Shown piece by piece: positions 6,935 to 38,806 of a stretch of 64,000 nt of DNA (positions are counted from its first letter, which is position 1; every line of letters starts with the position of its first letter). The DNA comes from Nicoliella spurrieriana (GTDB taxonomy: Bacteria > Bacillota > Bacilli > Lactobacillales > Lactobacillaceae), in assembly GCF_023380205.1 (NCBI RefSeq), contig NZ_CP093361.1, positions 682,001 through 746,000 of the forward strand, given 5' to 3'. The notes below the pieces were generated by a model, which had not been told where the DNA came from, did not search any database, and saw only the letters and a list, made by a program, of their open reading frames with translations. The position numbers were made by a program, and so were the translations under genes.

Positions 6935-6961
6935 AGTGTGCAATCAGTATCCTTGCACGTT
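6935..6961 (+). promoter_or_regulatory. 5'-UTR stem-loop of giant gene 2
   Basis: GTGCAA (6938-6943) pairs perfectly with TTGCAC (6953-6958) around a 9-base loop. Three more outer pairs, two of them G-U, extend the stem to 6935-6961. It lies between the candidate promoter and the ribosome binding site GGAG (6968-6971). Gene 3 has a different hairpin in the equivalent place. Possible roles are mRNA 5'-end protection or translational control; both are inference. Confidence 0.45.
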
Positions 6962-6979
6962 CAGATTGGAGATGTTCCG

Positions 6980-9900
6980 ATGCTTTATAATAAATTTGAA
7001 TATAGTAAAGTTAATGATAAAAAAGTCCTCCGGAAAGTGAAAAAGCAATGGGTAGTAATGTCACTATCCATGTTTACAATTCTTGGTGGGGGTGCGGCAA
7101 TTAGCCAACACATCACGACGGTTAGTGCCGATGCTAATACTAGCTCTACATACACTTCGAGTGAAACTAGTGATGATACTAAATCATCCGCTAGTGCTGA
7201 AAATGCGGGGGCTAGTTCTGCTGATAATTCAAGCGCTACGACCGCTTCTAGTACGCAGGACAGCTCTGCAAGTACTACTAGTGCGAGCTCAAGTGCGACC
7301 ACGGAAAGTAGCTCGACTGACACGACCAGTGGGGCTACTTCGACCAGTAGTGACAGTAATTCTAGCACTGCTTCAGCTTCCAGTAGTGCTGATGGTAGTA
7401 GTACTTCCAGCAGCGCTGACAGTAGTAGTGCCGATAGTAGTTCCGCCGACAGTGCCTCAGCTAGTTCAGCTGTAAGCGCTGGTTTTGCTGCGGCTTCATC
7501 AGCTGCAAAGGCTGGGACCACGGTCTCAAGTAGTTCTGATGCTAACTTCAATAAGGGGGTTTCAGAATACAATTCCTCAGCTGCTGCAGCTTCTGCTTCT
7601 GCTGATTCAAAGGGGAGTTCCTCAGCTGACAGTCAGGATAGTTTATCATCCGCAAGTGCTTCTAGCTTATCAGCAACCGCTAGCAGTGCAGCTATTCAAT
7701 TGGATCAAGGTTTAATGGATCGGATTGCTGATGATACTGATGGTACTAATAATACCAATAATGGTGGTACTGATGGTAACACCGACAATAATGGCACCAC
7801 TAGTGATGGTAGTGATGCATCTAGTGCCGCTTACAATACGGTGCTTGCTGCACTTAAGAGTGGAGAATCATACAGTGTTAGCAACAGTTCTGATTCTGCC
7901 ATTTCTGCTGCGATTTCGAATGCTCAGGTAGCTTATAGTGCTTATACCTCAGCATTCAGTGCTGGATTTATGGCAGCATCGAATGGAACTTCAGCCAATG
8001 TTAGTAGTAGTGATTCCAATGCAGCTAATGATGGGAGCTATGCTTATGCAGCAGCTACTGCTGGTGCAGTGGCTGCTTGGAACTCGTTGCACCCTGATGA
8101 TTTAAAGTCAGCAGCTTCCAATTCCTATAATACTTCAAGTAATGCTTACTACGCATACTATGCAAATGGTTATAATGCCACAATTGATGCATATAACAAG
8201 TACAATTCACTAAATGCCAGTGCTGGGACCCAATCTGGTTCCGCCATCTACGGTTCCGGTGGGCTTGGCCAACAAACTAGTGTAACTAGTGGATCCGTTA
8301 ACCGGAACACCAGCGCCCAAGTGGTCAATTCGCCTAGTGATAGCGCCGAAGCCACTTCTGGTAATGATGTAACATCTGGCACTGCCGGTAATATTTCTGG
8401 TGCTTCGGTGAATGCTTCGACTGCTAACGTTGCATATAACTATGCGGTCGATTACTTCTTAAGTCGTCAAGGAGCCTATGATGCTGAAAGTGGGCGTTGG
8501 AACGGTGCCGATAGCAAGGGCTCTTACACGGTTCTTAATACTCAGACCAATACCAATAATCCTTATATTCAAGCATACAATGGGGCCCAAGCTGCAATTA
8601 ATAATGAAAGTACCGGTAGTTTTACATCCGTTAATAAGTTAACTGGTAACAATAGTACTAACTATACTTATGGTTATAATGACGTTGCCAATAAGGTTAA
8701 TAATGGTTACGTTGATGCTACTGGCACCACCACGTACATCTACTTTGCTTCGAATGCAGGGATGGTGGATAGTTACTTAGGATCCAGTAGTATTAACGGT
8801 AATCATACCGAATTACGACTGACCACTGATATGCTAAGTACGAGTGGGAGTAACCAAGCAACTCCTAATGGTACGTCGACTTACATCACTATTAATGGAC
8901 AAAACCACATTGCTGATTTGACCACGATGCATAATAACCCAGTTAATGTTAATTTAACGCTGGAAAACTTTGCTAAAATGTATGGTTCTAATATTTATGG
9001 ACAAATTAATATGTATAGTTCCAACCAAGGAAGCCTAACGTATAAAAACTTAAACTACGAAGGTTCCCAACTCTTCTATGGGCCTAACGTTCCGAATGTT
9101 TATATTGCTGGAAACGTTAATGTTATTAGTGAAGGTCACTACACCAGTCCATTTAATACTAATTATCCGACTCAAAATAATAACCAACAAAATATGCAAA
9201 TCAACAACCTTGAATTACTGCCGAACTCTTCTTACTACGGGCAAACCGAAGATGGAAACGTAATTGAATTAAATGGAAACTTAGTTATGGATCAAGGTTC
9301 AACGATGACCCTTGCGCCTGGTGGTAGTGGTGGTGAAAATGCTGGTAGTTTCAGCCGAAACGGCCAAACTGGGAATGAAGGGCTAGCCATCACCGGTGGG
9401 GGTGCCACGATTAACCAAGGTGCCACGTTGAACATTATTCCCCGCGATAACCAAGCCGATGCAATGGTTAACTCCGGGTACGTTAACATTAACGGTGGAA
9501 CCATGAACGTTATTTATAACAACGCTCCATCTGATGGTGATCCACTATGGATTAAGGGTTCTGTGAACGTGCAAAACGGTGGAGCCCTTAATGTTCATGG
9601 AGCTGGAGCTAATTTCGCTGGCTTTGGTGGCAACATGGTGACGGTTACGAATGCTTCCATTAACATCCAAAACCGGGGAAACTTGGCGATTTATACGGAT
9701 GGTCAAACGACTAATACTGGCTTGACCCTCTTAAAGAACTACCAAAGTCAAGTGACCATCAATAACCCCGGAACCAACGTCTTTTTGAGTAAGAATGGGA
9801 TTGATAATAATGCTGGTGGTAAAGGGGTTGGGAACTTCTTTAACACTACGCCAATCAATGCCTATGCAGTGAAGGGGCAGGTTGATGATCAAACAGATAC

Positions 9901-12900
9901 TCAGCCACAGTATTTAGTTACGATTAACGGGAAGAGTGGAAATGTGGTTCAGGTCTATGACCAAAATGGAAAATTAGTTAGTGATCCAGCCATTACGAAC
10001 TTTGACAATGCTAGTTCCCAATATTTAGCATTCCATTCCGTGCCAACCGTCTTTATCGCTGGGACCCCAGCTTTAGCAAATGATTCAAACGCGGCATCTA
10101 AGTACGATGTTGCTTCTACCATTAACTTAAGTAACGTTAATGATACCAGCGGCTATGTCTACGTGCGGGTAACCACTAATGGTAGCGATGAACCTACTGG
10201 CACCACTAGTGTGACGACTAACAATCCTACTGTGGATAATCCAGCGAATGCCGCCCTGACTAGTGGGATGTTGAAAGATCCTGGTCAGGCAGATTCTACC
10301 GGTGGTGATACCGCAATCAAGAATGCCTATACGACTGCCATTCCGGTTAGTGCGTTTACTAAAACGGGTGATGGAACTTATACCTACAATTATTTACACG
10401 CAATTAATGCCACCACTAGTGAGCCAACCGATGTTATTGTAACTGCGCAATATGGGGTTACTAACAGTAGTACTGAAATTAAAAATAATGGTAGCAATAC
10501 TACGGTTACGAACGTTTCACATAACCCTGCAACCGCACCAATTACTAATAGTACCAATACTATTTCTGGTAAGATTACTAGCAACGTTGTATACCCAGAT
10601 CGGACGGGCCAATATAACTCAGCAGCACAATCAGCCCAAAACAGCGCTGCTTCATATGCGACCGATGTTGCTAATGTATCCAATGCAATGACATCATATT
10701 CTAGTGTTGCTAGTTCTGCCTCCGTGGTAGTTGATAGTTACAATGGTGCTGCGCAATCATTAGCGAACGATTCTGGAATTAAGAGTGATGCTAGTTTAGC
10801 ATCAGCTGTTAATTCTGCATCCGTTGCAATTAATTCAAATAGTGCTGATGCTAGCAAACAATCATCCATTGCTAGTTCGGCTTCTTCAGCTGTGAGCGCT
10901 TCAATCGCACAAGCACAGTCATTAGCAAGTACTGCTAGTTCGTATGCAGTGCAAGCATCCAGTGCAATTAATGTTTTTCAGAGTGCTACTAGTGTTACTC
11001 CATCGGCTTCTGCTACTAGTGCTATGAGTTCAGTCGATGCTGCTGCTTCTGGCTATGCATCTAATGCTATCTCTACTGCTTCATCAGCAAGTGCTGTTTC
11101 AGCTGCTATTAGTTCTATTAATAACGATGGGCAAAAAGCTGCTGCGCAAGCAGTTCAAGATGAAAATTCAGCTGCATTCCAGGGAACGGTTCTTGCATCT
11201 GCTGCTAATAGTTTAGCTAAGTCGTCTGCTTCTAAGGCTGATAGTGAAAACACTCAAATTTCATCTAATTCAACTGCTACTAGTTCTCAAGCTAGTGCAA
11301 TCGCATCCTATGCGAGTGCCTTCCCTAAGAATACGACTGTGCAAAGTGCTAATACTGTTGCGGAATCTGCGGCTAAAACGATGTCATCAGCTTATTCTGC
11401 TGGTTCATCAGCTAATTCAGTTGCTCAAGCACAATCTAGTATTGCTAGCTCTGCATATGCAGCTGCTCAAGATGCATTTGGTAGTGCTAGTTCAGCTTAT
11501 TCATTCTTTAGTTCGCAGGTTTCATCGGCACAACAGCTTGCTTCTTCAGGAAGCAATGCTAGTGCTAGTGCTGCATTATCTACTGCGATTGCATCATATG
11601 AAGCTGCTAGTGCTTCTCGCTCCGCAGTTCAAAGTCAGTATAATTCTGCATATGCCGCTAAAGTTTCCGCATCAAGTGCTGAATCCGTGGTTGCTGCTAA
11701 CTTGAAGTCGGCTTCCGCTGCTGCTGTTGCTGTATCTAAAGCAAATATTGATGCATCAAGTGCTGCTTCTTCTGGAATTAGTGCTAATGGTACTGCTAAA
11801 ACAGCCGCTGATGATGCTTCGAGTGCTGCTAGTGTTGCTGCTAGTGCCGCAACGGGATCATCAAATGGCTCCAATAATCCAGCCAATACCGCTTCTCGTG
11901 CTGCTTCAGTTAGTTCAGCTGCCTCTGATGTTGCATCTAATAATACTAATACTAGCTCGTCAACATCGCTTGCTAGCTCATATGCAAATAATGCAGATGC
12001 TGTAGCAAAATCTAACCCTAATAATTCGGCTATCCAGTCCGCAGCTAGCACCGCTAGTTCATATGCTAGTGATGCTGCCTCTGCATCTAGTGCCGCATCT
12101 AATGCTAATGATTCTGCATCATCAGCTAAGGTGAAAGCGGATAGTGCAAATGCAGCTGCGTCCTCAGCCAATAGTGCTGCTCAGTCTGCTTCCGTAAATG
12201 CTAGTTCTGCATCCGTAGCTGCTAGTCAAGCAATTGCAAATGGTGATGATCCATCTTCTGCCCTAGCTAGTGCTTCAGTTGCTCAATCCATTGCAGTTTC
12301 TGAAGCTAGTGTTGCTTCTAGTGCTAATATTTCAGCAGCAGATGCATCCAGTGCTGCTTCTAATGCGTCAAGTGTTGCCTCCAGTGCAGCATCTAAAGCC
12401 GCAGGTGATGCTACTTCCGCTAGCGTTGCTGCATCGAATGCAGCTAGCATTGCAAGTTCAGGGGCCGCAGTCGCTACTTCTGCTGATGGGGATGCTAAGG
12501 CTGCTGCCAGTGCCGCTTCAGTTGCTAATGATGCGACTTCTAATGCCTCTAGTGGTGCTGATAGCGCTTCAACTGCCACTAGTAAATACTCTAGTGAAGC
12601 TAGTGCTTCATCCAGTCAAGCTAGTGTTTCAATTGGTTCTGTAACTTCTGCTCAGACCACAGTTAATGGTTTGAATAGTGCTAACTCATCGAATCCAACT
12701 GTAAGTAGCGCTTCATCTGCAATTTCCAGTGCTGCTTCCGTGGCTGATGCAGCATCCAGTGATGCCCTTGATGCATCCAGTGCTGCTAGTTCAGCTAGTT
12801 CGGCTGCTAGTTCATATGCTGCTTCCGCTAGTTCAGCAGCATCCGATGCTAATGTTCAAAAATCACTTGCCTCTAGCGCGGCTTCTGCTGCCCATTCTGC

Positions 12901-15900
12901 TTCGGCTGCAGGGGACTTCTCTGCTGCTAGTTCAGCAGCGTCAGTAGCTGCTAGTGCAAAGGACAAGGCAATTACCGATCAAAATACTGCAGAATCTGCT
13001 TCTAAATCTGCTGATGGTCAGGTTACAGCTGGATCAAATGCTGCATCTAAAGCCGCCAGTGCTTCCAGTGCAATTGCCAGTGCTGCTAAGGTTGCATCCG
13101 ATGCCGCATCTGCTGCCCAATCCGCTGCTGATGCTGGTAAGGATACTAACAGTAAGGCTAGTGGCTACGCTTCAAGTGCTGATAACTATGCAAGTATCGC
13201 TTCTAGTGCCGCCTCTGGTTCTTCCAGTGGTTCTGCCGACGCATCCAATGCGGATTCGCACGCTAGTTCAGTGAGCGCCGCTGCTGCTAGTGCATCAGAT
13301 AATAATGAAACGACGAGTTCATCTGCATCCCTTGCTAGTTCATATGCATCCGATGCTAATAACGTTTTAAGTAGCAATCCTTCTAATTCCGCCGTTAGCA
13401 GCGCTGTAAGTACCGTTAATTCTGCTGCTACGGTTGCATCATCTGCATCAAACGATGCATCGAAGGCTAACTCTGCAGCTCAAGCTGCGAAGAGTCGTGC
13501 TGATGCTGATAGTTCTACTGCTGCTTCAGCCAACGTTGCTGCCTCTACTGCTGCTTCGACTGCACATTCTGCCTCAACGGCTGCTAGTGAAGCTGCTGAT
13601 AAGGGGGACTCAAGTGCTGCTGCAACTGCATTAAGTGCTGCCTCGAATGCTGTTAACAGTGCTAGTGCTGCTGCCAGTGTTGCCTCAAGTGCTAACGCGG
13701 ATGCTTCAAGCGCTGCTTCAGATGCAAGTAGTGCATCTTCAGTGGCCTCTAGTGCATCTTCAGTGGCTTCCAGTGCTGCTGATGTTGCAAAGACGGCTAC
13801 GCAAAGTGCTACCGACGCTGCCAAAACTGCTGGCCAGGGATATGTAGATAGTGCAAATGCTGCCTCCAGTGCTGCTAGTTCCGCTGCTGCTGCTACACAA
13901 AATGCTGCTTCTAACGCCTCTAGTGGTGCTGATAGCGCTTCAACTGCCACTAGTAAATACTCTAGTGAAGCTAGTGCTTCATCCAGTCAAGCCCATGACT
14001 CAATGGGTTCAATTGCTTCAGCTCAATCATCAATCGAGAGCTTAAATAGTTCTTATGCTAAAATTCCAGCGGTAAGTAGTGCAACTTCAGTAATTTCTAG
14101 CGCTGCTTCGGTTGCTGATGCCGCTTCTAAGGATGCTACTGATGCCTCCAGTGCTGCTAACTCTGCTAGTTCCGCTGCAAGTTCACATGCTGCTGTTGCA
14201 AGTTCAGCCGCTGCCGATGCAGTTAAACAAAATAGTGCTGCATCATCTGCTGCTTCTGAAGCCAGTGCTGCTGCTGCTGCTGGTGATAATGTGAAGGCCA
14301 GTTCAGCTGCATCTGCAGCGGCCGCTGCGCAAAGTGCTGCGCAAAATGATCAAAAGGCTGCAACGGATGCCAGTTCTGCAGCTGACGCTGAAGTCTCAGC
14401 TGGTTCAGCTGCTGCTGCAAAGGCATCGAGTGCATCGAGTGCCATCCAAAATGCAGCCTCAATTGCTGCTGATGCTGCATCCCACGCTGCTGAATCCGTT
14501 AGTGCCGGAAACGCATCCAATGCAAGTGCAGGTAATTACGCTGATACTGCTGCAAAGGCATCGAGTGCTGCTGATAGTGATGCTACTGGTGCTAATTCGG
14601 GCGCTTCTGCCAACCCAGCTAATACTTCATCACGGGCTGCTGCGGTAAGTACCGCTGCCTCTGATGTAGCAAGTAATAACTCTGCAGCTTCAAGCGGAGC
14701 TAGTTCGGTTAATTCCTATGCAAGCGAAGTTAATTCAATCGCATCTAGGAACCCAACGAACTCCTCAATCGCAAGTGCTAACGCAACCGTTAGTTCAGCA
14801 GCTGTCGTTGCTAATTCAGCTGCTAAGGATGCTTCTGATGCTAACTCTGCTGCTCAATCTGCTAAGAGTCGTGCTGATAGTGATAACGCGGTTGCTTCGT
14901 CTGCTAATACGGTGGCTTCTCAACAAGCCTCTGCTGCTAAGTCTGCATCAATTGCTGCCAGTGATGCGGTAGCGAGTGGTGATCCATCTACAGCTTCCAG
15001 TGCAGTTTCAGTTGCATCGACTGCTGCATCGACTGCTGCTAGTGCCGCTACGGTTGCTCATAATGCGAATGCTGATGCTGCATCTGCGCAAAACGATGCG
15101 AATGCAGCTTCAGCTAAGGCTTCCAGTGCCGCTGGCACCGTTGCTGATGCAAATAAAACTGCCGCTGCCGCTGCTGACGTTGCTAATAAACAACAAAACG
15201 GAAGTTACGCTTCCGCCGCCGCTGCTGCTGCTGCTAAGGCGCAAGCCGATAGTACCGCTGCTTCCGGTGCCAATGGTTCCGCTGCTAATAACGGAACCGA
15301 TGCATCACTGAAGTCCAGTCAAGCTGGGGCTTCATCCAATCAGGCCAGTGTTGCCAATAGTGGGGTAAACTCCGCTGCTGCCGCTGTCAACTCCTTGAAC
15401 AGCTTGAACAGTAGCAACCCAGTGGTCTCCAGTGCTTCTGCAGTGATTACTAGTGCTGGTTCAGTTGCTGCTTCTGCTTCTGCTGACGCCACCAGTGCGT
15501 CTTCAGATGCATCGAGTGCGAAGTCCGATGCCGATGCTGCAACTTCCAATGCAATCGCTGCATCCACTGCCGCATCGAGTGCCTTTGTTGATGCTAGTTC
15601 ATACGCCAATGCTGCTTCCGTGGCTGCTTCTAATGGTGATGGTCAAGCTGCATCTACAGCTGCCAGCCAGGCTGCTTCCGCTGCTGCAGTTGGTGATAGT
15701 GCATTATCCAGTGCAAACGTAGCTTCCAATGCTGCTAACTCGGCTGCCCAAAAGGCCACTAGTGCTGCCCAACGGGCTGCTGGTGATCAATCAGCTGCTG
15801 CTAGTGCTGCCTTAGTTGCTTCCAATGCCGCTAATGACGCTTCAAATGCCATTGCTAACGGCATTTCCAGTGCCAACAGTGCGACTAGTTCCGCTGGAAC

Positions 15901-18900
15901 TGACGTTTCATCAGCCAGTGCAGCCGTTTCAAGTGCTGCTAGTGCTACCAGCTCTGCTAGTGCTGCCACAAGTACTGATTCATCACAAACTAGTATTTCC
16001 AGCTCCACCGCTAGTTCATTTGCAAACAACGCAAACTTAGATGCTGCTGATGCTGCTGCCGTTGCTTCTGCTAACCCAGGGAACGCTTCGATCGCCTCTG
16101 CTGCGACCCGGGCTGCCAGTGCTGCAAGTACTGCTAACTCCGCTAGTTCAGTTGCGCAATCTGCTTCCCAAACGGCATCGAGTGCTTCCAGTGTTGCTAG
16201 TTCCGCTAACTCGACTGCTAATAGTGCTAACAGTGACGTTAGTTCCGCTAATAGCGACTATGCCTCTGCATCCGCCGTTGAAGCCTCCGCTGCTAAGACT
16301 AGTAATAGTGCCTTAGCATCAAGTGCCGCTAGTGCTGCTGCATCTGCCGCTGCCCGGGCTAAGTCCGGGGCTGCCGTTGCGAGTCAAGCTGCTGCGACTG
16401 CATCATCGGCTGCCGTTGATGGCTCCAATGCCGTTGTTACTGGGAGTAGTGCGGCTGTTGTTGCTTCAGGGGCTGCCACTGTGGCTTCCCTTGCCGATAG
16501 CACCGCTAATTCCATGAATCCTGTTAAGTCAACTAACAATGACTCAGCTGCCAGTGCTGGAAACAGCATGGCATCCAGCGCCGTTAGTGCCGCTAACTCT
16601 GCATCCGCTGTGACTGGATCAGATTCTAGTGCCACGAGCGCTGACGCATCGAATGCTGATAGCTACGCTTCCGTTGCTTCCACTGCCAATTCCGGTGCCG
16701 GAAGTTCGACTAGTGTTGCTAACAGCGATGCTGCTCAAACCAATAGTTATGCTTCTCAATACCCAACGAATACCACCATTAGTAGTGCCAACAGCGTTGC
16801 TAGTTCCGCAAACTCCGTTGCTAATTCTGCAAATTCGGATGCTGCTAGTGCCAACAGCGTTGCTGCCAATGCTAAATCCGTTGCTGACTCCGCATCCAAT
16901 GATGCTAGTCAACAAAACTCGGCTGCTCAATCAGCTGCTAGTGCCGCTAGCGCTGCTTCTGCTTCCGCTTCATCTGCCTATGCTGCAGGGAGTACCGCTG
17001 CTGGGGACCGGTTTGCTCGTCAAGCCAGCCTCGCTGCAAGTAACGCTTCTGCTGCTGCTAATCAGGCTGCTTCAGATTCATCGACCACTAGTTCCGCCGT
17101 TGCGGTAGCATCCAGTGCTGCATCGACTGCAACTTCCGCTAGTTCAGTGGCTTCATCCGCTGCTGGCGTGGTTTCAAGTGCCTTCAATGACGCTTCCTCC
17201 GCAGCTTCTGCTGCCGGTGGTTACGCAAGTGGGGCGGCTAACGATGCTTCGATTGCATCGAGTGCTGCTTCCGGTGCTAGTGCTAATTCGGCTGCCACTG
17301 GGTCAGATCAATCTAACGTTGCCAGTGCTTCTTCAGTTGTGAACTCCGCAGTTAGTGCTACTTCAAACTTTGCTGGCACCGCCGGTTCCGCTAGTTCGGT
17401 AACGGCATCGATTGCTTCTGCTAACCCATCCGATTCAAGCCTTGCTAGTGATGCTCACGTTGCATCCTCTGCAGCATCAGTTGCTAATTCTGCAAGTGGG
17501 GTGGCTAGTTCTGCTAACTCCGTCGTTAGCGCAGCAAACTCCGATGCAAGTAACCAAAACGCTAGTGCCAATGCTGCTAGTTCTGCTGCTGCAAATGCTG
17601 CCACTGCCGCTAGTTCTGCTGCGGTCGTTGCTTCTAGCGCCGCTGCTAAGGGTGATAACTCAACTGCTAGTTCTGCTAGTGTCGTTGCTTCTCAACAAGC
17701 ATCCACTGCAAAATCAGCATCGAGTGCTGCCTCTGCTGCGCGTTCCAATGCTGATAGCGATGCTGCCGTTGCGTCACAAGCTGCCAACGATGCATCTTCA
17801 GCCACCAACGCTGCTAGTTCTGCCAATGCAGTTGCTAGTTCCGCTGCTAACGATGCCCAATCCAGAGCCGCTAGTTTGAATCCATCCGATTCAGCTGCTA
17901 ACCCTGCCCGGGCAAGTAATGCTGCCTCTGCTGCTGCATCAAATGCTGCTGCCACTGACAGTTATGCTAAGGTCGCTTCATCAGCTAATAGTGGGGCTAG
18001 TGCAGTTCCATCACAAACGAGTGCCAATAGCTCGACTGCTAGTTCTGCAACTAGTTTGACGAGTGCAATTGCATCCAAGTACCCAAGTATTGCTGCGGTT
18101 AGTTCCGCTAACCAAGCTGCCATCGTTGCTTCCAGTGCTGCTAGCTCGGCTAATAACGATGCTTCCATTGCTGCAGACCAGGCCAGTGCTGCCAATTCAT
18201 CAGCGCAAGCTGCTAAGACCAGTGCTGATAGTGCCGCTGCAGTTGCTAGTTCCGCAAACTCCGTTGCTGCGAGCGTTGCTAACAAACAACCATTTGATTC
18301 CGCCGCTGCTTCCAGTGCTGCCAGTGTTGCTGAATCTGCGAACGCCGTTGCTTCAGCTGCACAAAGCAATGCTTCTAACGCTGCCAGTGATGCTCAATCA
18401 GCATCCGTCCGTGCAGCGACCGATTCCGGCTTAGCTCAGTCCGCTGCTTCGGCTGCAAGTACTGCTGCAAGTAACGCTGCTGCAATCAGTAACGCTATCG
18501 ATGGTGCAAACTCAGAAGCTAGTTCAGGTAGTTCCGCTGCTTCAAGCGCCGCTTCAGATGCCACTAGCTATGCCAGTGGCCAACCAAACGGCCCAATCAG
18601 TGCCAACAACGCTGCTTCCCACGCCGCTTCAGTCAGCGTGATCGCATCCAGTGCTGCCTCTGCATTGAATTCTGATACTTCGGTTGCCAGTGCCACCAGC
18701 GCTAGCGCTGCCACTGTGAACTCACTTGCCAGTGCGAACCCATCGAACGGGAGCATGCAATCCGTTGCTTCGGTTGCCAACAGCGCCGCTGCCAATGCTT
18801 CTGCTGCTAGTTCGGCTGCTTCAACTGCGAACACCGCAATTCAATCAGCCAAGAGTCGTGCAGACGTTGCTTCATCTACGGCTGCTAGTGCCAACTCCGC

Positions 18901-21900
18901 AGCTAACTCGGCTGCCCAAGCTGCTAGCCTAGCTAGTTCTGCTGCTAAGTCAGCTGCCAACGCTGGGGATCCATCCACTGCTTACAGTCAAGCAAACATC
19001 GCTAGTCAAGAGGCTGACAAGGCCAGAAGTGCCGCTGCTGCTGCTAGTGCTGCCAATAACGATGGTTCCGCTGCCGCAACCGATGCTGATACCGCTGCTA
19101 AGAGCTTGAACTCTGCAAACAGTGCCCTTGCTTCTGATGCAACCGTGGTATCTAGTGCTGCCAATGCTGCTAATTCAATGGCTGATGGTGGTTACGCTTC
19201 CGCTGCTGCTGACGCTGCTGCTAAGGCTGCAAAAGACAGTGTCGCTGCTTCAGGCGCAAATGGTTCCGCTGCTAATAACGGCACCGATGCATCCTTGAAG
19301 TCTAGTCAAGCCAGCGTTTCATCTAGTCAAGCTAGTGTTGAAACCAGTGCGGTTAATTCAGCTGCTACGACCGTTAACTCCTTGAACAGCTTGAATAGCG
19401 CGAACCCAGTGGTGGCTTCTGCGACCTCAATGGTCAACTCCGCTAGTTCAGTTGCTAATTCAGCTTCCGCAGACGCTACGCTTGCATCATCCGATGCTTC
19501 CAGTGCTAAGTCCGCTGCTGATTCCGCCACTGCTAGTGCTGCTTCTGCTTCTGTTGATGCTTCCTACGCTGCTTCTGCTGCTAATAGTGCTGCCAGTGCT
19601 GCTAAGACGGCGCACGGTTCCGCTGCTGCTAGTCTTGCTAGCCAAGCTGCCGTTGCCGCATCCAGTGCTGACACCGCATTATCAAAAGCTAACGTGGCTT
19701 CAAATGCTGCCAACTCGGCTGCCCAAAAGGCTACGAGTGCCGCTCAACGGGCTGCCAATGATCAATCCGTTGCCAATAGTGCTTCGTTAGTCGCTTCCAC
19801 TGCTGCTAGTCAAGCAATGAGTGCCGTTTCAGCTGGGATTTCTAGTGCTAATAGTGTGACTAGCTCTGCTGGAGCTGACGTTTCATCAGCAAGTGCGACT
19901 GGCTCCAATGCCGCTGTTGCCACTTCATCCGCTAGTGTTGCTACTAATTCTGATTCAGTTCAGACTAGTTCTGCGAGTGCAACTGCCAGCGCTGCTGCCA
20001 ACAATGCTAATTTGGATGCCCAAGATGCCGCTGCGGTTGCTTCTGCTAACCCAGGAAACTTCGTGATTGCATCCAATGCCACGAAGGCATCCTCCGCTGC
20101 CAGTGTTGCTGCTTCCGCTAGTTCGGTTGCGAACTCCGCATCCCAAACCGCTTCCAGTGCTTCTAGTGTTGCTAGTTCTGCTAACGTGGTCGCATCGAGT
20201 GCTAATAATGACATTAGTGCTGCTAACAGTGACTACGCATCTGCATCCGCCGTTGAAGCTTCCGCTGCTAAGACCAGCAATAGTGCTTTAGCATCGAGTG
20301 CCGCATCTGCTGCTGCATCTGCCGCTGCCCGTGCAAAATCCGGTGCAGCCATTGCGAGTCAAGCTGCTGCGACTGCTTCCTCCGCTGCTGTGGATGGTTC
20401 CAATGCCGTTACTGCTGGCTCCAGTGCTGCCTTTGTTGCTAGCTCTGCCGTTGCCACTGCTTCGGCTGCGGACGCTGCTGCCAATGCATCCAACGCTGCT
20501 AAGCCATCTGATCCGGACTCCGCTGCCAGTGCTGGAAATGCACTTGCATCGAGTGCGGTCAGCACCGCTAATTCGGCTGCTGGGGTAACCACGCCAGCTG
20601 CTAGTGCTACCAGTGCCGATGCATCGAATGCTGATAGCTACGCTAAGGTGGCTTCCGATGCTAATACCAGTGCCGGCAGTTCAACCAGCCTTGCTAACAG
20701 CGATACTGCTCAAATTAATAGTTATGCTTCTCAATACCCAACGAACGTTGTCATCAGTAGTGCCAGCGTTGTCGCTAGTTCAGCCAATTCAGTGGTTAAT
20801 TCCGCAAACTCAGATGCTGCTAGTGCTAACAGCGTTGCTGCTAATGCCAAGTCCGTTGCTGACGCCGCATCTAACGATGCTAGTCAACAAAACTCAGTTG
20901 CTAGTTCTGCCGTTGCTGCTGCAACCGCAGCTTCCAACTCCGCTTCATCAGCCTACGCCGCAGGAAGCACTGCTGTCGGGGACCGGTTTGCCCGTCAAGC
21001 TAGTCTTGCCGCAAGTAATGCTTCATCTGCCGCTGCTCAGGCTGTCCTAGATTCAAGTACCACTAGTTCTGCCGTTGTGGCTGCTTCCAATGCTGCTTCG
21101 ACTGCTACTTCCGCTAGCTCAGTTGCTTCATCTGCTGCTGGGGTGGTTGCAGGAGCCTTCAATGACGCTTCCTCCGCAGCTTCTGCTGCTGGTGGTTACG
21201 CAAGTGGGGCTGCAAACGATGCTAAGAAGGCATCGAGTGCCGCTTCCGTTGCAGATTCCAACACCGCTGCTACGAATTCAGATCAATCTGGTATTTCCAG
21301 TGCCGCTGCATTCGTAAACTCAGCTGCTGGTGCTACTTCGAACTTCTCGAATGCCACTAGTTCTGCTAGTTCCACTACTGCATCGATCGCATCAGCATAT
21401 CCAAACGACTCCAGCCTTGCTAGTGACGCTACCGTTGCTTCCTCCGCTTCCGGAGTAGCTAGTTCCGCTAACTCGACGGTTAGTTCCGCTAACACCGTTG
21501 CGAGTGCCGCTAGTGCCGATGCAAGCAACCAAAATGCCAGCGCCAATGCTGCTAGCTCGACTGCCAATGCCGCTGCTAGTTCTGCTAGTTCCGCTGCTGT
21601 GGTTGCTTCGACTGCGGCTGCAAATGGTGATAACTCGACCGCTAGTTCCGCTAGTGTCGTTGCTTCTCAACAAGCATCGACTGCCATGTCAGCTTCTGAT
21701 GCCGCCGTTAGTGCGCGTTCGAATGCTGATAGTGACGCTGCCGTTGCTTCCTCCGCTGCCGTCGTAGCTAGTTCTGCGACCGCCGTTGCCAGTTCTGCTA
21801 ACACCGTTGCCAGTTCTGCTGCTAACGATGCTCAATCTAGAGCCGCTAATTTGAATCCTTCGGATCCAACTGCGAACTTGAACCGGGCAAGCAATGCTGC

Positions 21901-24900
21901 TAGTGCTGCTGCATCCAATGCTGCTGCTACTGATAGCTATGCTTCCGTTGCGTCATCCGCTAACAAGGGTGCTAGTGCAATGCCTAGTCAAACTAGCCTC
22001 GCTAGTTCGACCGCTACGTCTGCAACGACCGTTACCGGTTCAGTGGCTAAGACGTACCCAAGCAATACCGCAATTTCGTCCGCTAACCAAGCTGCCATCG
22101 TTGCTTCAACGGCTGCTAGTTCCGCCAATACCGATGCTTCGATCGCTGCTAGTCAAGCAAGTGATGCAAACTCATCAGCCCAAGCTGCTAAGTCAGTTGC
22201 CGATAACGCTGCTGCCTCCGCTTCCGCTGCGAACTCCGTTGTTGATAGCATTGTGGCTTCCGCAACGCCATTCACTTCGAGTGCTGCATCTGCAGTTGCT
22301 TCTGCTACTAGTTCTGCTGAAGCTGCAAACTCCGCTGCTAGTGCTGCTCAAACGAATGCTTCTAACGCTGCTTCTTCAGCTCAATCAGCATCCGTGCGGG
22401 CCGCTACCGATTCATCATTAGCTAGTTCCGCTGCGTTGGCCGCAAGTACCGCTGCCAGCAACGCACTTGCAATTAGTTCCGCCATTGTGACTGCGAACTC
22501 AATTGCTAGTTCAGGAAACTCCGCTGCCTCTAGTGCCGCAATCGTAGCTACGAGCTACGCTACTGGTCAATCCAAGAGTGATGCAAGTAATGCTGCTTCG
22601 AAGGCCGTGACCGTTAACTCCCTTGCTTCCAGTGCGAACTCAACGTTCAACATTGCTAGTTCCGCTGCCAGTGCGGTTAGTGCTAGCAACGATGGAATTA
22701 ATTCCATTGCTAGTGCCAACCCATCGAACGGGAGTATGCAATCAATTGCCTCGGTTGCTAACAGTGCTGCTGCCAATGCTTCTGCTGCCAGCGCCGCTGC
22801 TTCAACGGCAAATGATACGATTCAATCAGCTAAGAGCCGTGCAGACGTTGCTTCTTCGACTGCCGCGAGTGCGAACTCCGCTGCGAACTCCGCTGCCCAA
22901 GCCGCTAGTCAAGCCAGTGTTGCTGCCTCGACTGCCGCTGCGACCGGTGATCCATCGACTGCCAGCAGCCAAGCTGCCGTTGCCAGTCAACAGGCTGATA
23001 AGGCTAGAAGTGCTGCCAACGCCGCTAGTGACGCATACAGTGCCGGAAGCGATGCATTGACCTCAGCTCAATCCGCTGCCAAGGTCTTAGACTCTGCTAA
23101 TGGCGCCATTGCTGCTGATTCCAACGTGGTTGCGAATGCCGCTAACGCTGCGAACTCATTGGCCGATGGTAGTTACGCCTCTGCTGCTGCGAATGCTGCT
23201 GCCCGGGCTACTCAAGATAGTATTGCCGCTTCTGGAGCCAATGGTTCCGCTGCTGCCAATGCTACTGACGCTTCATTGAAGTCCAGTCAAGCCAGCGTTT
23301 CATCCAGTCAAGCTAGTGGGGAAACTGGCGTTGCCAACTCCGCTTACTCACTGGTTAACAGCTTGAACACGAACAACAGTGCCAACCCAACCGTTGCCTC
23401 TGCTAGTTCCGTGGTCGCTTCCGCTAGTTCCGTTGCTAACTCAGCATCCGCTGACGCAACCCAAGCATCATCTGATGCTACGAGTGCTAAATCCGCTGCT
23501 GATTCATACACGGCTAGTGCTGCCAATGCTTCAACGGCTGCTTCATTAGCTGCCTCTGCTGCGAACTCATTTGCCGCTCAGGCGAAGTCAGCCCACGGTT
23601 CTGCTGCCGGTAGTCTTGCTCAACAAGCATCCGCTGCTGCCAGTGCCGCTGACCTTGCATTCTCAAGTGCCGCCGTTGCATCGAATGCTGCGAACTCCGA
23701 AGCCCAAAAGGCTACCAGTGCTGCATTGCGGGCTGCTTCAGATCAATCATTAGCATCCAATGCTGCCAATGATGCATCGGTTGCTGCCGGCCAAGCTTCG
23801 AGCGCCATTGCCGCTGGGATTTCCAGTGCCAACAGCGTTACGAGTTCTGCTAGCGCAACGGTATCATCCGCAGTCGTTACCGGCTCGAGTGCCGCTAGCG
23901 TTGCTAATTCCGCAAGTTCTGCTACTAGCAGCGATTCAGTACAAACGAGTTCCGCTAGTTCGACTGCAAGCTCTGCCGCTAATAGCGCTAACTTCAATGC
24001 TAATGATGCATCTGCCATTGCATCTGCTAACCCAGGCAATGCTTCAATCGCATCCGCTGCAGCGAAGGCTGCCAGTGCCGCTACAGTTGCTAACTCCGCA
24101 TCTAGTGTTGCAAGTTCTGCTTCACAAACTGCATCCAGTGCTGCGAGCGTTGCAAGTTCCGCTAACACGGTTGCCGCCAGTGCAAATAACGACATCACTT
24201 CCGCTAATAGTGACTATGCTTCCGCTTCTACTGCTGAAGCATCCGCTGCTAGCGCTAACGATAGTTCAGCCGCATCCAGTGCTGCATCTGCCGCTGCATC
24301 TGCTGCTGCCCGGGCTAAGTCCGGTGCTAGCGTAGTATCCAACGCTGCGAGTGCCGCTGCTTCCGCTGCCGTCGTTGGTTCTAGTGCCGTTGTTGCTGGT
24401 AACAGTGCTGCTGGGGTTGCTAGTTCCGCTGCTGTCGATGCATCGAATGCTGATAGTGCTGCCAACTCAATGGATAGCTCTAAGCCAGCTGATCCATCTG
24501 CTGCTGCCAGTGCCGGAAACAGCACCGCTGCCAGTGCTACTAGTGTAACTAGTTCCGCTGCTAGTGTGACTGCACCAATTGCTGCTGCTACTAGTACCGC
24601 TGCTTCCAATGCTGATAGCTACGCTAAGGTTGCTTCTGACGCCAACACCGGTGCCGGGAGTTCGACCAGCGTTGCTAACAGCGATAATGCTCAAATTAAT
24701 AGTTATGCTTCTCAATACCCAACCAACGCTACGATCAGTAGTGCAAACTCAGTTGCAAGCTCCGCGAACGTCGTTGCAAACTCCGCAAATGTAGTTGCTG
24801 CGAGCGCCAACAGCGTGGCTGCCAATGCTAAGTCCGCTGCTGACTCCGCATCCAACGATGCTAGTCAACAAAATTCAGTTGCGCAATCAGCAAATAGCGC

Positions 24901-27900
24901 TGCGAATGCTGCTTCTGTAGCTGCATCCTCTGCATACTCAGCTGGGAACACCACTGCTGGTGATCGTTACGCCCGGCAAGCAAGCTTAGCTGCTACTGAC
25001 GCTTCCAACGCTGCCGTTAAGGCGGTTAGTGATTCAAGCGTTGCTAGTGCAGCCGTGGTCGCTGCTTCAAATGCAGCTTCGACCGCTATTTCCGCTAGCT
25101 CAGTTGCATCATCCGCTGCTGGGGTCGTTACGAGCGCCTTCAACGATGCCTCTTCCGCAGCTTCTGCTGCCGGTGGTTACGCAAGTGGGGCGGCTAATGA
25201 TGCTAAGAAGGCATCCAGTGCTGCTTCGGTTGCTACTTCGAATGCTGCTAGCGCTAACTCCGGTCAATCCGGCGTTTCAAGTGCTTCATCAGTCGTAACT
25301 TCCGCTACTAGCGCTGCTTCTAGCGTTGCAAGTGCTACGATCGCTACCAGCAACGCCATCTCAGCCGCTAATTCGACTGCAACTGCTGGTGGTCATCCTA
25401 ACAACCCACAAATCTCAAGTGATGCCAACGTTGCATCATCCGCTGCCGTCGTTGCTAATTCAGCTAACGCAGTCGTAAGTAGCGCTGCCAACGACTTTGC
25501 GAACGCTAGTTCCAATGCCAGTGCTGCATTTAGTAGTGCCAATGCTGCTAGCTCCGCTGCCAACAGTGCCGCTACTGCCGCTAGTTCCGCTGCCGTCGTT
25601 GCATCGACCGCTGCTGCTAAGGGTGATAACTCGACTGCCAGTTCCGCTAGCGTGGTTGCTTCTCAACAAGCATCAACTGCCATGTCAGCATCCAATGCTG
25701 CCGTTAGTGCTAGTTCGAATGCCGCCGTTGCATCCAATTCAGCTAGTGTAGCTGCTTCGAAGGCTGCCTCCGCTGCTGCAGTTGCTAGTTCTGCAAACAC
25801 GGTCCAAAGTAACGCTGCTAAGGATGCCCAATCCAGAGCCGCTGCTTTGAATCCAAATGATCCAACCGCGAACTCAGACCGGGCAAGCAACGCTGCTGCT
25901 GCTGCTCAATCCAATGCTAACGCTGCTGATAGCTACGCTGCAGTTGCCGCTAGTGCAAATAGTGGAGCACAACCACTATCCAGCCAAGCAAGTGTATCCA
26001 ACAGTCAAGCTAATTCCGCAGCTAGTTTGGTAAACTCAATTGCTTCTAAGTATCCAAGCAATTCCGCAATTTCCAACGCTCAAAATGCGGTTTCCGCTGC
26101 TGATAGTGCTGCTAACTCTGCTAACAACGATGCTTCGATCGCTGCGAACCAAGCAAGCACTGCCAACGCCTCCGCTCAAGCTGCTAAGTCGACTGCTGAT
26201 AACGCTGCTAGTTCGGCTAGTGTTGCTAACTCGATTGCAGCATCTGCTGCTCAGGTCACACCATTTACTGCGAGCGCATCTGCCGCTGCTTCAAAGGCTG
26301 CTGATAGTGCTGAATCCGCTAATGCGGTCGCATCTGCTGCCCAAAGCAATGCTTCAATTGCCGCTAGTTCCGCTCAATCCGCATCGAACCGGGCTGCTAT
26401 CGATTCATCATTAGCAAGTTCGGCTGCTGCTGCCGCTAACGCTGCGCGTGACAATGCGATTGCCGCTAGTCAAGCCATCGCAAGTGGGGCCAGTGCTCAG
26501 GCTGCTGCACAAACTGCTGAACAATACGTGAAGGCTGCCAGCGTTGCCGCAAGCAACGCCGTTCCAGTTCAAACGTCCGCAAGTTCCAATGCTGCCAATG
26601 CCGTTGCCAGTGCGAATGCTACTGGTAGTGACATCGCTGCATTGAGTGCTACGAACTCCGCTGTTACTAGCTTAGCTTCAGTTAACTCCGGTGATTCTGG
26701 AGTTGCTAGTGCCGCTAGTTCAGTTGCTTCATACGTTGCTGCCGGCTCAACTGCATCCGCTGCCGGCTCCACGGCCGCTTCCAACGCTGCCGTTGACAGC
26801 ACCAATGCCGTTAATGCCGCTAGCCAAGCTGCTGGTCAATTCCAAGCTGCTTCGAATGCTTCACTTGCCGCTTCATCCTATGCTTCCGCTGCTGCTAGCT
26901 TCGGTAGCAATGGTGATAGCGTCAATGCTTCCATTAACTCCAGCTTAGCTGATTCAGCCGTTGCTGCTGCTAGCCAAGCCGCTGTGAATGGTTCATCATA
27001 CACTAACGTTGCCGTTAGTGCCGCTCAACAAGCAACCACTGAATCCCAAAACGCTGCGAGTGCAAAGGCTGCTACTAACGCCGCTGCATCCAATGCTGCG
27101 AAGGTTCAATTGAGCGTTGCCAACTCCGTTGCCCAGGTTAACAATGCTGCATCGAATGAAGCTAGCTCCGCACAACCAGTTGCATCCAGTGCTACTTCCG
27201 GAGTGAGTGCTGCTTCATCTGGCATCGTGGTTTCCAGCAAGTCTGCTGATGTTAGTTCATCAGTTGCTAGTTCTGCAAACGATGCTGCTTCTGATGCCGC
27301 TTCGACTGCCAGCGATGCTGCTAGTCGGGCTGCCAGCGTTGCATCTGAAAACCCAACTGACTCCTCAGTTGCCAGCGATGCTGCGAAGGCTCAATCAGCT
27401 TCCGTTGTTGCTTCGGTTGCTGCTTCCACTGCTGCTGCTGCCTCGAGTGCTGCACGGGATGCTTCCAGTACCGCATCCAGTGCGAACGACACGGCTTCAT
27501 CTGCTAACACCGCTGCAAACAGCTACTCCGTAGTTGCTTCTAGCGATGCCACTGCCGCTTACCAAGCATCCAGTGCTGGGAACATGTCAGCTGCTAAGTC
27601 TTACGCAGATGCCGCTTCTACCGCTGCTGGTTCTGCATCGGCTCAAGCATCGATTGCTAATGCCGCATCCAGTGCCGCTGCCTCTGCTGCGAAGTCAGGT
27701 TCAGACGCTGCCGCTAAGGCCGTCAGTGCCCAAACCGTTGCATCTAGTGCTGCCGTGGTTGCATCCAATGCCGGGAGCTTTGCTTCCTCTACTGGATCAT
27801 CCAATGTTGCCAACGCGACTGATGCAAACAGTGCCGCTAGTTCAGCTGCGCTTGCCGCATCTAGCTTCGCAGCTGGTGCTACGACCAGCCTCTCCGATGC

Positions 27901-30900
27901 CAATGCGACTGATTCAGCTGCATCTAGTTATGCTGCTGACGCTAGTTCCGCTAATAGTGGGGCTACCGGAACTTCCAATGCCGTTAACAGCTTGAATGCT
28001 TCCGCCAATAGCGTTGCTTCTGCTAACCCAAGCAATGCGGTTGTAAGTAGCGCCGCTACGACCATCAGTTCCGCTAACCAAGCGGTTTCTAGTGCGGTCG
28101 TTACTGCAGTCAGTGCAAACAGCCAAGCTTCCGCTGCGAAGTCAATTGCTGATGCCGCTGCGAACTCCGCTAGCGTGCAAAACTCATTGGCTCACCGGGC
28201 TGCTGACCAAGCCGCTGCTGCTTCTGCAAGTGCTTCATCTGCATACGCTGTGAAGGACTACGCTGCAGGCAATAGCTTTGCCAGTGCTGCCGTTGCTGCC
28301 GCATCGAACGCTTCGGTTGCCAGTGCGAATGCATCGAATGCCGATTCAGTCGTTCAATCTGCTACGGACTCAGCTTCTAATGCTGATGCCAGTGCGGTTG
28401 CTGCTTCTAGCACCGCCGCTAGCCTAGCTGCGGTTGCCAGTGCTGCTGCTGATAGCTTGAACGCTGCCGTTAAGGTCCAAAATTCACAAACGAGTGAAGC
28501 ATCCTCAATTGCTAGTTCAGCTACCGCCGCTTCTAGCGTTGCCAATGCTGCCAATAGCAACACCAGCAACAACAATTCTGCTACTTCTAGCAATGCGGTT
28601 GCTGCCGGTTCGACTGCTACGTTAGTTTCATCCACGGCTGTATTGGCTAGCTCCCAAGCTGCCAATGCCCATGCCGCTTCTAGCGTTGCATCATCCGTTG
28701 CTGCTGCTGAAAACATTACTGATCCAATCACTTCTTCACAACTTACGAGTGACGTTTCAGTTGCATCCTCCGCTGCAACGAGTGCCGATGCTGCTAACTC
28801 ATCTGCTGCTCAAGCCCAAAGCGATGCCAATGCTGCTTCATCGACAGCAAATGGGGCTTCAAAAGCTGCTTCAGCTGCGAGAGCATCTGCTGCCGCTGCA
28901 ACGGTGAACGCAAACTCACTTGCTAGTCAAGCTTCATCCGCTGCCGTTGCTGGGAACAGTTCGGCTGCTGATAGCTTGAACAGTCAAGCTAAGGCTGCTG
29001 CCGATGCCGCAAGTGCCCAAACCGTAAGCGCCCAAGCTGCCGATAGTACTGCTGCCAGTGCTAGTTCGACTGCTGCCGGGGCTTCACAACGGGCTAACAG
29101 CGCCTTCAGTGCCGCTAGTGTTGCGAACTCGATCGCATCATCCGCTGCTTCTGATGCTCAATCCAGAGCCGCTAGTTACGATGCTAACCAAAGCAAGAAG
29201 CGGGCTTCGAATGCTGATTCAGCAACCGATAGTCACGCCGGAGTAATTAGTAGTGATAGTGCAAACGTTAACAGCGCTTCTGCTACCACCAGCAACGTGG
29301 TTTCAAACACCACGGCTGCTTCTAGCAACGCTGCTAGCGCCGCTAGTGCTACTGCTGCTCAAGCTTCTGCACATCCAAAGAACTCAGTGATTGCCAGTGC
29401 GAACTCGACTGCCCAATCCGCAGCTGCCGTTGCATCCAATGCTGCTTCAGATGCTAGCGATGCGAACGCAATCGTTTCGAGTGCATCCAGTACCGTTAGT
29501 TCTGCCTCTGCAGTTGCGAAGGGTGCACAAAGCTTAGCTTCCGCTGCTTACGACAGTGCTTCAGCTTACGCATCGCAAGCCGCTGATTCGACTGCCACGC
29601 CAGCCGCCCGGGCCGCTGCTCGGTCCGCTGCTGCCAGTGCCGCTGATAGTGCTGCTGCACAAGAACAAATTGCATCGAACGCTGCTGCTGCTGCTGACAA
29701 TGCAAATAGTGCTGCCAACAGTGCTACGAGCCGGGCTAACCGTGATCAATCGATCGCAAACACTGCCGCTGACCAAGCTGCCAGTGCTAATGCTGCTGCT
29801 AGTGACGCTGCTAACACCGGTTCACAGACCAACAGTGCTGCTGATTCCGCTGTGAATGCGGCTACGACTGCTAGTTCGACTGCCTCAACCGCTGCTACCG
29901 GTGCCAATAAGGATGCTAGTCTTGCTTCGAAGTACGCTAGTCAAGCTAGTGTATCGACTAGCCAAGCATCCAGTTCTAACACCTTAGTTTCCGGTGCTGC
30001 ATCATCTGCAAATAGCATTGCAGCTCAATACCCAAGCAACTCCGCCGTTGCTTCCGCTGCAACTGCTGCTACGACTGCTTCCAACACCGCAAGCTCTGCT
30101 ACTTCAGATGCCGAAAGTGCTAATGCCGATGCTCAATCGGCTAAGGCCGCTGCTTCAGCTGCTGCTTCCAGTGCTAATGCTGCCAGTGCTGCTGCTAGTT
30201 CCGCATCGATCGTTGCCACTAGTGCTGCTTCGAATGCGAAGAGCTACGCCAGTGATGGGGATGAATCCGCAGCCCAAAGTGCAATGGCGGTTGCTTCGAA
30301 TGCTGCTTCGACTGCCGTTTCCGCAGGTTCAACTGCGGTTGCTGCTAGTCAGACTGCTTCGACGAACGCTTCCGTTGCATCGAGTGCTTCAATTGAAGCT
30401 TCTAAGGCCGCTGCAATTGCTTCCGCTCAGGTTGCCGTTGCCAACTCAGCTAACAACGCTGCTAGTGCTGCTGCTAGTGCTGGGAACCAAGGTTCCGCTA
30501 GTGCGACTGCTGCATCGAACACCGCTAGTGCTGCTAACTCCACGGCTTCCGTTGCCGCTAGTGGTGCCAATGCCGATGCTACTAAGGCATCCAGTTACGC
30601 CGTTCAAGCTAGTGAATCAACGGATTCAGCATCGAATGCCGATGCTTCCGCCGCTGATAATTCAGCCGCTGCAAGTAGCTTTGCTTCAGCCCACCCAAGC
30701 AACGCGGTCGTAAGCTCCGCTGCTGCTGTGGTTAGTTCCGCTGCCAGCGTTGCTAGTTCCGCCCACGCTGATGCTAATAGTGCTAACTCACAAGCTCAAT
30801 CAGCGAAGGCTGCTGCTTCGACTGCTGCTGTGACTGCTAACTCAGCAAGTACGGTTGCTTCGAACGCTGCCGATGCTGCTTCATCCGCTGCTAGCGAAGC

Positions 30901-38718: not shown

Positions 38719-38732
38719 ATAAGTGTTAAACT
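38719..38732 (+). promoter_or_regulatory. Candidate extended -10 promoter of giant gene 3
   Basis: This carries the same 12-mer as before gene 2 (ATAAGTGTTAAA, 38719-38730), giving TG-T-TAAACT (38724-38732), a weaker -10 match. No clear -35 box is visible. Transcription would start near 38739 and leave a 5' UTR of about 68 bases. Confidence 0.35.
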
Positions 38733-38752
38733 GTAAGTATGTAATATTAGGC

Positions 38753-38770
38753 GGTAATTTAATAATTACC
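38753..38770 (+). promoter_or_regulatory. 5'-UTR stem-loop of giant gene 3
   Basis: GGTAATT (38753-38759) and AATTACC (38764-38770) form a perfect 7-bp inverted repeat around TAAT. It lies between the candidate promoter and the strong ribosome binding site AGGGGAG (38792-38798). It could be an mRNA hairpin or, being near-palindromic DNA, a regulator site. The sequence is unrelated to the hairpin before gene 2. Confidence 0.45.
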
Positions 38771-38806
38771 ATGAAGCTAATTAAGATAGGTAGGGGAGAT
38801 GTCCTT

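Follow-up and report, generated by a model that had tools for sequence, protein, structure and literature searches.

Giant secreted proteins encoded by neighbouring genes have been described in Apilactobacillus kunkeei, in which Giant1-5 form a tandem cluster and carry repeats of, for example, 62, 103 and 366 amino acids (aa) that are "highly imperfect" (PMC12863079). These proteins combine a signal, an SRRP-like beta-solenoid head, an alpha-helical repeat rod and a DUF5776/SH3b-like end, and a match of the Giant1-3 heads to the L. reuteri SRRP has likewise been reported (PMC12863079). Related "megaproteins", with Ser/Ala-rich repeats and DUF5776, are known from Nicoliella spurrieriana SGEP1_A5, an isolate from stingless-bee honey, and from N. 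lavandulae Es01 (PMC11349052). In the present work, we have analysed a 64,000-nucleotide window of the genome of the type strain N. spurrieriana SGEP1_A5 (C2:682001-746000), which contains two genes of this kind, g2 and g3, and we describe in them a super-repeat in which six units of about 221 aa recur in a fixed order. The long alpha-helical rod (predicted here with moderate confidence) and the consecutive giant genes of the giants of fructophilic lactic acid bacteria and of the megaproteins are also found here. However, no positional super-repeat is described for the A. kunkeei giants (PMC12863079), whereas the genes considered here contain ordered hexamers of 221-aa units, and the main text on the Nicoliella megaproteins gives their size, composition and domains but no unit length, positional classes or super-repeats (PMC11349052).

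Recursive duplication within the coding sequence of a giant protein, with diverged end copies, is also seen in the A-band of titin, where domains in the same position are more alike than neighbours, most strongly in the central super-repeats and weakly at the ends (PMC10665226). Titin is not homologous to the present proteins: it is a muscle protein of Ig/FnIII beta domains with an 11-domain super-repeat in its C-zone (PMC10665226), whereas Ig/FnIII domains are not seen in the present units, which are all-helical by prediction and have no Pfam match. The combination of positional conservation with divergent ends is nevertheless shared, as a unit T replaces the sixth unit class, f, distally and a diverged unit p stands proximally. 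The NBPF/Olduvai sequences provide another gene-borne higher-order repeat, a 3mer with positional subtypes, but these are human genes with 3-mers of ~1.6 kb units and unrelated sequence (PMC9584774). Hence, the protein family itself is already known (PMC12863079; PMC11349052), and its ordered super-repeat organisation was not found described; a limited literature search, to which most subscription journals were closed, yielded no description of this pattern in a bacterial protein.

Genomes and delimitation of units

The N. spurrieriana genome consists of 2,053,587 bases in two contigs (1,709,727 and 343,860 bases) and was compared with a second Nicoliella genome, that of Lactobacillus sp. Sy-1 (G001; contig NZ_JACCIU010000001.1), whose source is Heterotrigona itama honey (PMC13134047). 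The giant genes are labelled g1, g2, g3, h, i, j, x and y in N. spurrieriana, and Sa, Sb, Sd, Se, Sx and Sy in Sy-1. Units were delimited by a hidden Markov model (HMM) that was built iteratively from the giant proteins; its segmentation yielded 334 units with a model length of 220-221. Coordinates prefixed C2 refer to the contig, and all others to the window, in which every feature lies on the forward strand.

A super-repeat of six positional classes

Gene g2 (6938..38599; likely true start ATG 6980, MLYNKF...) encodes a giant surface protein of 10,553 aa, and g3 (38723..61120; likely start ATG 38807) one of 7,465 aa. The original prediction was that six units of ~221 aa recur in the same order in copies A, B and C of g2 and D and E of g3, and the HMM units and the class tree bear this out for all but the last unit of C and E. 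A protein-against-genome search with copy A located the copies exactly at the predicted starts (15416, 19403, 23384, 46583 and 50573) and with the predicted periods: A at C2:697416-701402 (3987 bp), B directly adjoining it at 701403-705383 (3981 bp), and D at C2:728583-732572 (3990 bp), with C starting at 705384 and E at 732573. The classes, designated a-f, correspond to g2 units 8-13, 14-19 and 20-24 and their counterparts in g3. In the unit segmentation, units a-e and unit f occupy, respectively, 15401..18712 and 18728..19381 in block A, 19388..22681 and 22709..23362 in block B (units a-e 76% aa identical to those of A), and 46568..49870 and 49898..50548 in block D.

The window has 28 units of classes a-f. 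Units of one class share an identity of 0.68 (minimum 0.52), compared with 0.44 for units of different classes (maximum 0.523) and 0.43 for adjacent units; the nearest neighbour belongs to the same class in all 28 cases, a result matched by none of 10,000 label permutations. The same holds for 70 of 70 units when 14 a-e blocks from the two species are compared, class a being the most conserved (0.66) and class e the least (0.56). Unit lengths are position-specific, those of class b being always 228 aa within the window, and the spacing of units is class-specific across paralogs and species (b mostly 229 aa, e the shortest). The best unit lag is 6 in g2, g3 and Se (0/2000 order permutations) and in h (1/2000).

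The same result comes from a tree of 90 units, drawn from seven genes of the two species: units group by position and not by neighbour, which is the outcome on which the original prediction had staked its case. Classes a, b, c, d, e, f and T each lie on one side of a branch, with clade support of 98-99 for a-e, 86 for f and 100 for T; the class label needs 7 changes on this tree, which is the minimum (0/200 shuffles), and the block label needs 83. The e units of the distal blocks of g2, h, g3 and Se form a separate clade (support 100).

The prediction of full hexamers holds for copies A, B and D, but blocks C (23372..26671) and E (50561..53860), both of the distal type, consist of five class units followed by a different terminal unit, and the end proposed for the array, 26692, covers only the region through the fifth unit of C. 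In sixth position, the unit that follows C (26675..27337) or E (53867..54526) shows 0.36-0.42 identity to f; this unit, T, is conserved in g1, h, Sd and Se. At the other end, the unit p that precedes the first a (g2 unit 7, 14741..15394; in g3, 45908..46558) groups with f in the unit tree, being f-like yet diverged. Because the unit preceding copy A is f-like and the unit following C and E is T, the register of the array, as read from the sequences, is best written as (f-abcde)n followed by T.

Block number and other periods in the family

The number of blocks differs among sister genes: three in g2, two each in g3, h and i, and one in g1 of N. spurrieriana; three in Se and one each in Sd and Sb of Sy-1 (from best-match lists and the block tree). 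One block amounts to ~1,329 aa, and sister genes differ by whole blocks. Beyond the array, the genes correspond to each other unit by unit: g2 units 25-29 have their matches at equal relative places in g3, h, g1, Se and Sd. The units upstream of the array, g2 units 1-6 (10790..14716), are related by position to those of the paralogs; downstream, units 26-29 (27341..30016) are single-copy, with a position conserved in g3, h, g1 and Sy-1. A separate zone of alike neighbours, variable in number, is formed by g2 units 30-37 (30020..35320; 0.52-0.67 identity between neighbours), g1 from unit 25 and Sd units 25-30, and in g2 it is followed by the conserved C-terminal units 38-41 (35327..37858).

Other periods are found elsewhere in the family. 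The best unit lag is 5 in Sx and Sy, 7 (together with 5) in y, and even in g1, x and Sa, so that super-repeat periods in family genes comprise 2, 5, 6 or 7 units. In an Apilactobacillus-like genome (G090:C4), an open reading frame (ORF) of 7,540 aa contains one local super-repeat of 423 aa (4 x 106 aa) at about aa 5745-7000. In Sy-1, units 2-7 of Sb (G001:C1:411692-437827) consist of about three repeats of a 451-aa dimer, the first two copies of which share 99.4% nucleotide identity. These dimers represent a very recent multi-unit expansion and show that block duplication is still under way in the family. In view of the lags of 5, 6, 7 and even numbers of units, the Sb dimers and the 423-aa repeat, this protein family seems prone to form super-repeats, whose period is free to vary.

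History and constraint of the blocks

In a tree of concatenated blocks, g2A groups with g2B (support 99/98) and SeA with SeB (100/100); the distal blocks g2C, g3E, h2, i2 and SeC form another group (96/95), and g1 is placed with Sd and Sb. Approximately unbiased (AU) tests reject A+B+C as a single clade in both g2 (p 8.9e-5) and Se (p 1e-39), and they reject a shared origin of the g2 A/B and Se A/B pairs (p 2e-6). Concerted evolution of the whole array is rejected by these tests. On the simplest reading of the trees, there were already two block types before the species separated, and each species then independently gained a third block or had it overwritten by conversion. The identity of SeA and SeB is patchy, with tracts of 0.97-0.98 beside tracts of 0.55-0.7, as gene conversion would give, and unit 6 of Sd and unit 8 of Sb, which belong to different giant genes, share 98.6% nucleotide identity, a likeness that suggests gene conversion between paralogs.

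Copies within a gene have ~58-82% aa identity, with synonymous divergence (dS) of 0.5-1.2 and a ratio of nonsynonymous to synonymous differences per site (pN/pS) of 0.32-0.39 for most pairs and 0.52 for SeB-SeC. Since dS is about 1 and pN/pS is well under 1, the copies are old and under constraint at the protein level, and not a young satellite-like array. Alpha-satellite higher-order repeats (HORs) show a similar arrangement with near-identical copies. The likeness to satellite HORs that had been drawn at the outset is therefore apt for the arrangement, including the clustering by position, but not for the divergence and constraint of these old copies, whose nucleotide identity is 62-81%; the A-band super-repeat of titin is the closer parallel. 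The proposal of two levels of amplification, in which monomers were duplicated and diverged before the hexamer was duplicated, is supported because the class clades are older than the gene duplications and the species split, and because block number varies by paralog. The predicted structure suggests a third, lower level, at helices of about 71-75 aa, three of which make up a unit.

Protein architecture and genomic setting

Both proteins may be exported. The KxYKxGKxW-type signal region of g2 (6980..7180) scores 19.2 against TIGR03715, above the cutoff of 18, and g3 scores 16.7, below it; the scores for PF19258, 22.6 and 20.9 for g2 and g3, respectively, are just under the cutoff of 23.6. The N-terminal head of g2 (8138..10795) is predicted to be rich in beta-strands and beta-solenoid-like; its best Foldseek match is the L. 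reuteri SRRP 5nxk, with probability 1.00 but an E-value of 0.025, for an AlphaFold2 (AF2) model of low confidence (mean pLDDT 44). The head may have the same fold as this SRRP, from which the present proteins differ by their alanine-rich helical rod and DUF5776 end; a search of PDB chains with a sequence profile of the head found nothing. A head stretch, GGSGGENAGSFSRNGQTGNEGLAITGGGATINQGATLNIIPRDNQADAMVNSG, is aa-identical in g2 (8138-10795) and g3 (39983-42640), with differing flanks, which suggests a recent exchange of head segments between the two genes.

The ~221-aa units contain about 57% Ala+Ser. An AF2 model of three units, from an alignment of 60 window sequences, predicts three helices per unit (H229-299, H303-371 and H381-453); it has no significant Foldseek match in the PDB (best E 0.13), and a Pfam search gave no matches to the rod units. 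DUF5776 (PF19087) scores above the cutoff in g1, g2 and g3 (1.9e-13 to 2.8e-15). It lies in the C-terminal regions 37817..38596 of g2 (2.8e-15, and alignment with g1 and g3; SH3b-like in relatives) and 60338..61117 of g3. No LPXTG anchor was seen in the C-termini read directly, and the DUF5776 end reads ...YITSNKKFVKFI.

A run of giant genes at C2:571167-743120 ends with g2 and g3; this cluster is syntenic in Sy-1, with similar genes flanking both sides; the genes directly 3' of the cluster include MFS transporters. The 3' part of the paralog g1 (C2:639303-688809) occupies window positions 1..6809, its single abcde block lying upstream of the window, and a frame change near C2:679.6-679.8 kb divides g1 in two. 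Two other paralogs are interrupted, i by a TAA ending at C2:611446 and j by a break at C2:592157-592224; the interruptions in the three genes may represent decay, phase variation or assembly error. A further pair of adjacent, stop-free ORFs of the same family (16,836 and 14,123 aa) lies outside the window at C2:1346984-1440152 on the reverse strand and has 2-unit and 5-/7-unit super-repeats. The giant genes examined total 280 kb, or 13.6% of the N. spurrieriana genome. A contig scan with the g2 C-terminus as query gave no matches, and a second, with an alignment as query, matched Sy-1 as the sole genome. Nine further Lactobacillaceae genomes gave weak matches to the hexamer (best E 3.6e-13; two candidates scored per genome), which were not accepted as homology, since Ala/Ser composition can yield such scores.

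Origin and significance of the super-repeat

The products of g2 and g3 are best accounted for, from their sequences, as secreted, wall-bound adhesins with a helical rod. Their predicted plan, which agrees with that described for Giant1-3 of A. kunkeei (PMC12863079), starts with a signal peptide and a beta-solenoid-like head. A very long rod follows, whose ~221-aa units are each predicted to be made of three ~71-aa alanine-rich helices (moderate to low confidence), and the protein closes with a DUF5776 end that has a probable role in cell-wall binding. The positional types would have arisen among the units of a common ancestor, after which the f-a-b-c-d-e run would have served as the unit of tandem duplication, and this would account for the whole-block differences between sister genes. 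The putative mechanism is unequal homologous recombination between copies of one block, with purifying selection keeping the positions distinct and patchy gene conversion acting between copies. The likely effect would be to alter the reach of the rod in fixed steps while the order of unit-to-unit contacts is left undisturbed, rod length being the trait on which selection may act. We consider it probable (roughly 0.8) that the genes encode an adhesin rod whose length changes stepwise, by hexamer blocks, through unequal recombination. Several points weigh against this account: the genus is sampled by two genomes, N. spurrieriana and Sy-1; dS is near saturation, which makes the dates rough; the third block could be an ancestral third copy altered by gene conversion and not a new duplication; and AF2 confidence is only moderate for the units (pLDDT 64, pTM 0.39) and low for the head.

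The super-repeat could also be a neutral by-product, in which recombination at homologous units yields blocks of whatever length was first misaligned, and the function of the hexamer is limited to maintaining the reading frame and the rod. The variation of periods among paralogs and the recent dimer expansions are consistent with this explanation, but the small number of blocks (1-3), an order kept since before the species split and the low pN/pS argue against it, and we regard it as possible though not favoured. It is unlikely that the hexamer is instead a positional template, a functional period of the kind that has been proposed for titin, in which the six unit types differ in their roles in binding or packing and selection acts on the register as well as on length. 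The retention of the classes across species and paralogs, their class-specific spacing, their unequal conservation (highest in a, lowest in e) and the purifying selection all fit such a template, but there are family members with 2-, 5- or 7-unit periods or single units, g1 has one block, and the conservation may reflect the constraint of packing against neighbours alone. A more specific form of this idea, that six surfaces are displayed at fixed spacing on a cell-surface rod as on a titin-like ruler or template, the periods of the paralogs providing different spacings, is similarly doubtful. Recent satellite-like amplification, despite the similar arrangement of alpha-satellite HORs, is extremely improbable given copies in the window that are 24-37% diverged in aa sequence at such dS, and an assembly artefact is ruled out by this divergence together with the same organisation in the independently assembled Sy-1 genome.

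The positional classes shared by the two species show that giant proteins of bacteria can lengthen through the duplication of multi-domain blocks, with the order inside the block preserved afterwards, in the pattern of titin. Sister genes that elsewhere correspond unit by unit differ in their number of blocks, which makes the family tractable for asking whether the number of super-repeats is selected, through rod length, is drifting, or is homogenised by gene conversion. Growth by blocks also explains in part how ~14% of a 2.05-Mb genome came to consist of genes for giant surface proteins.

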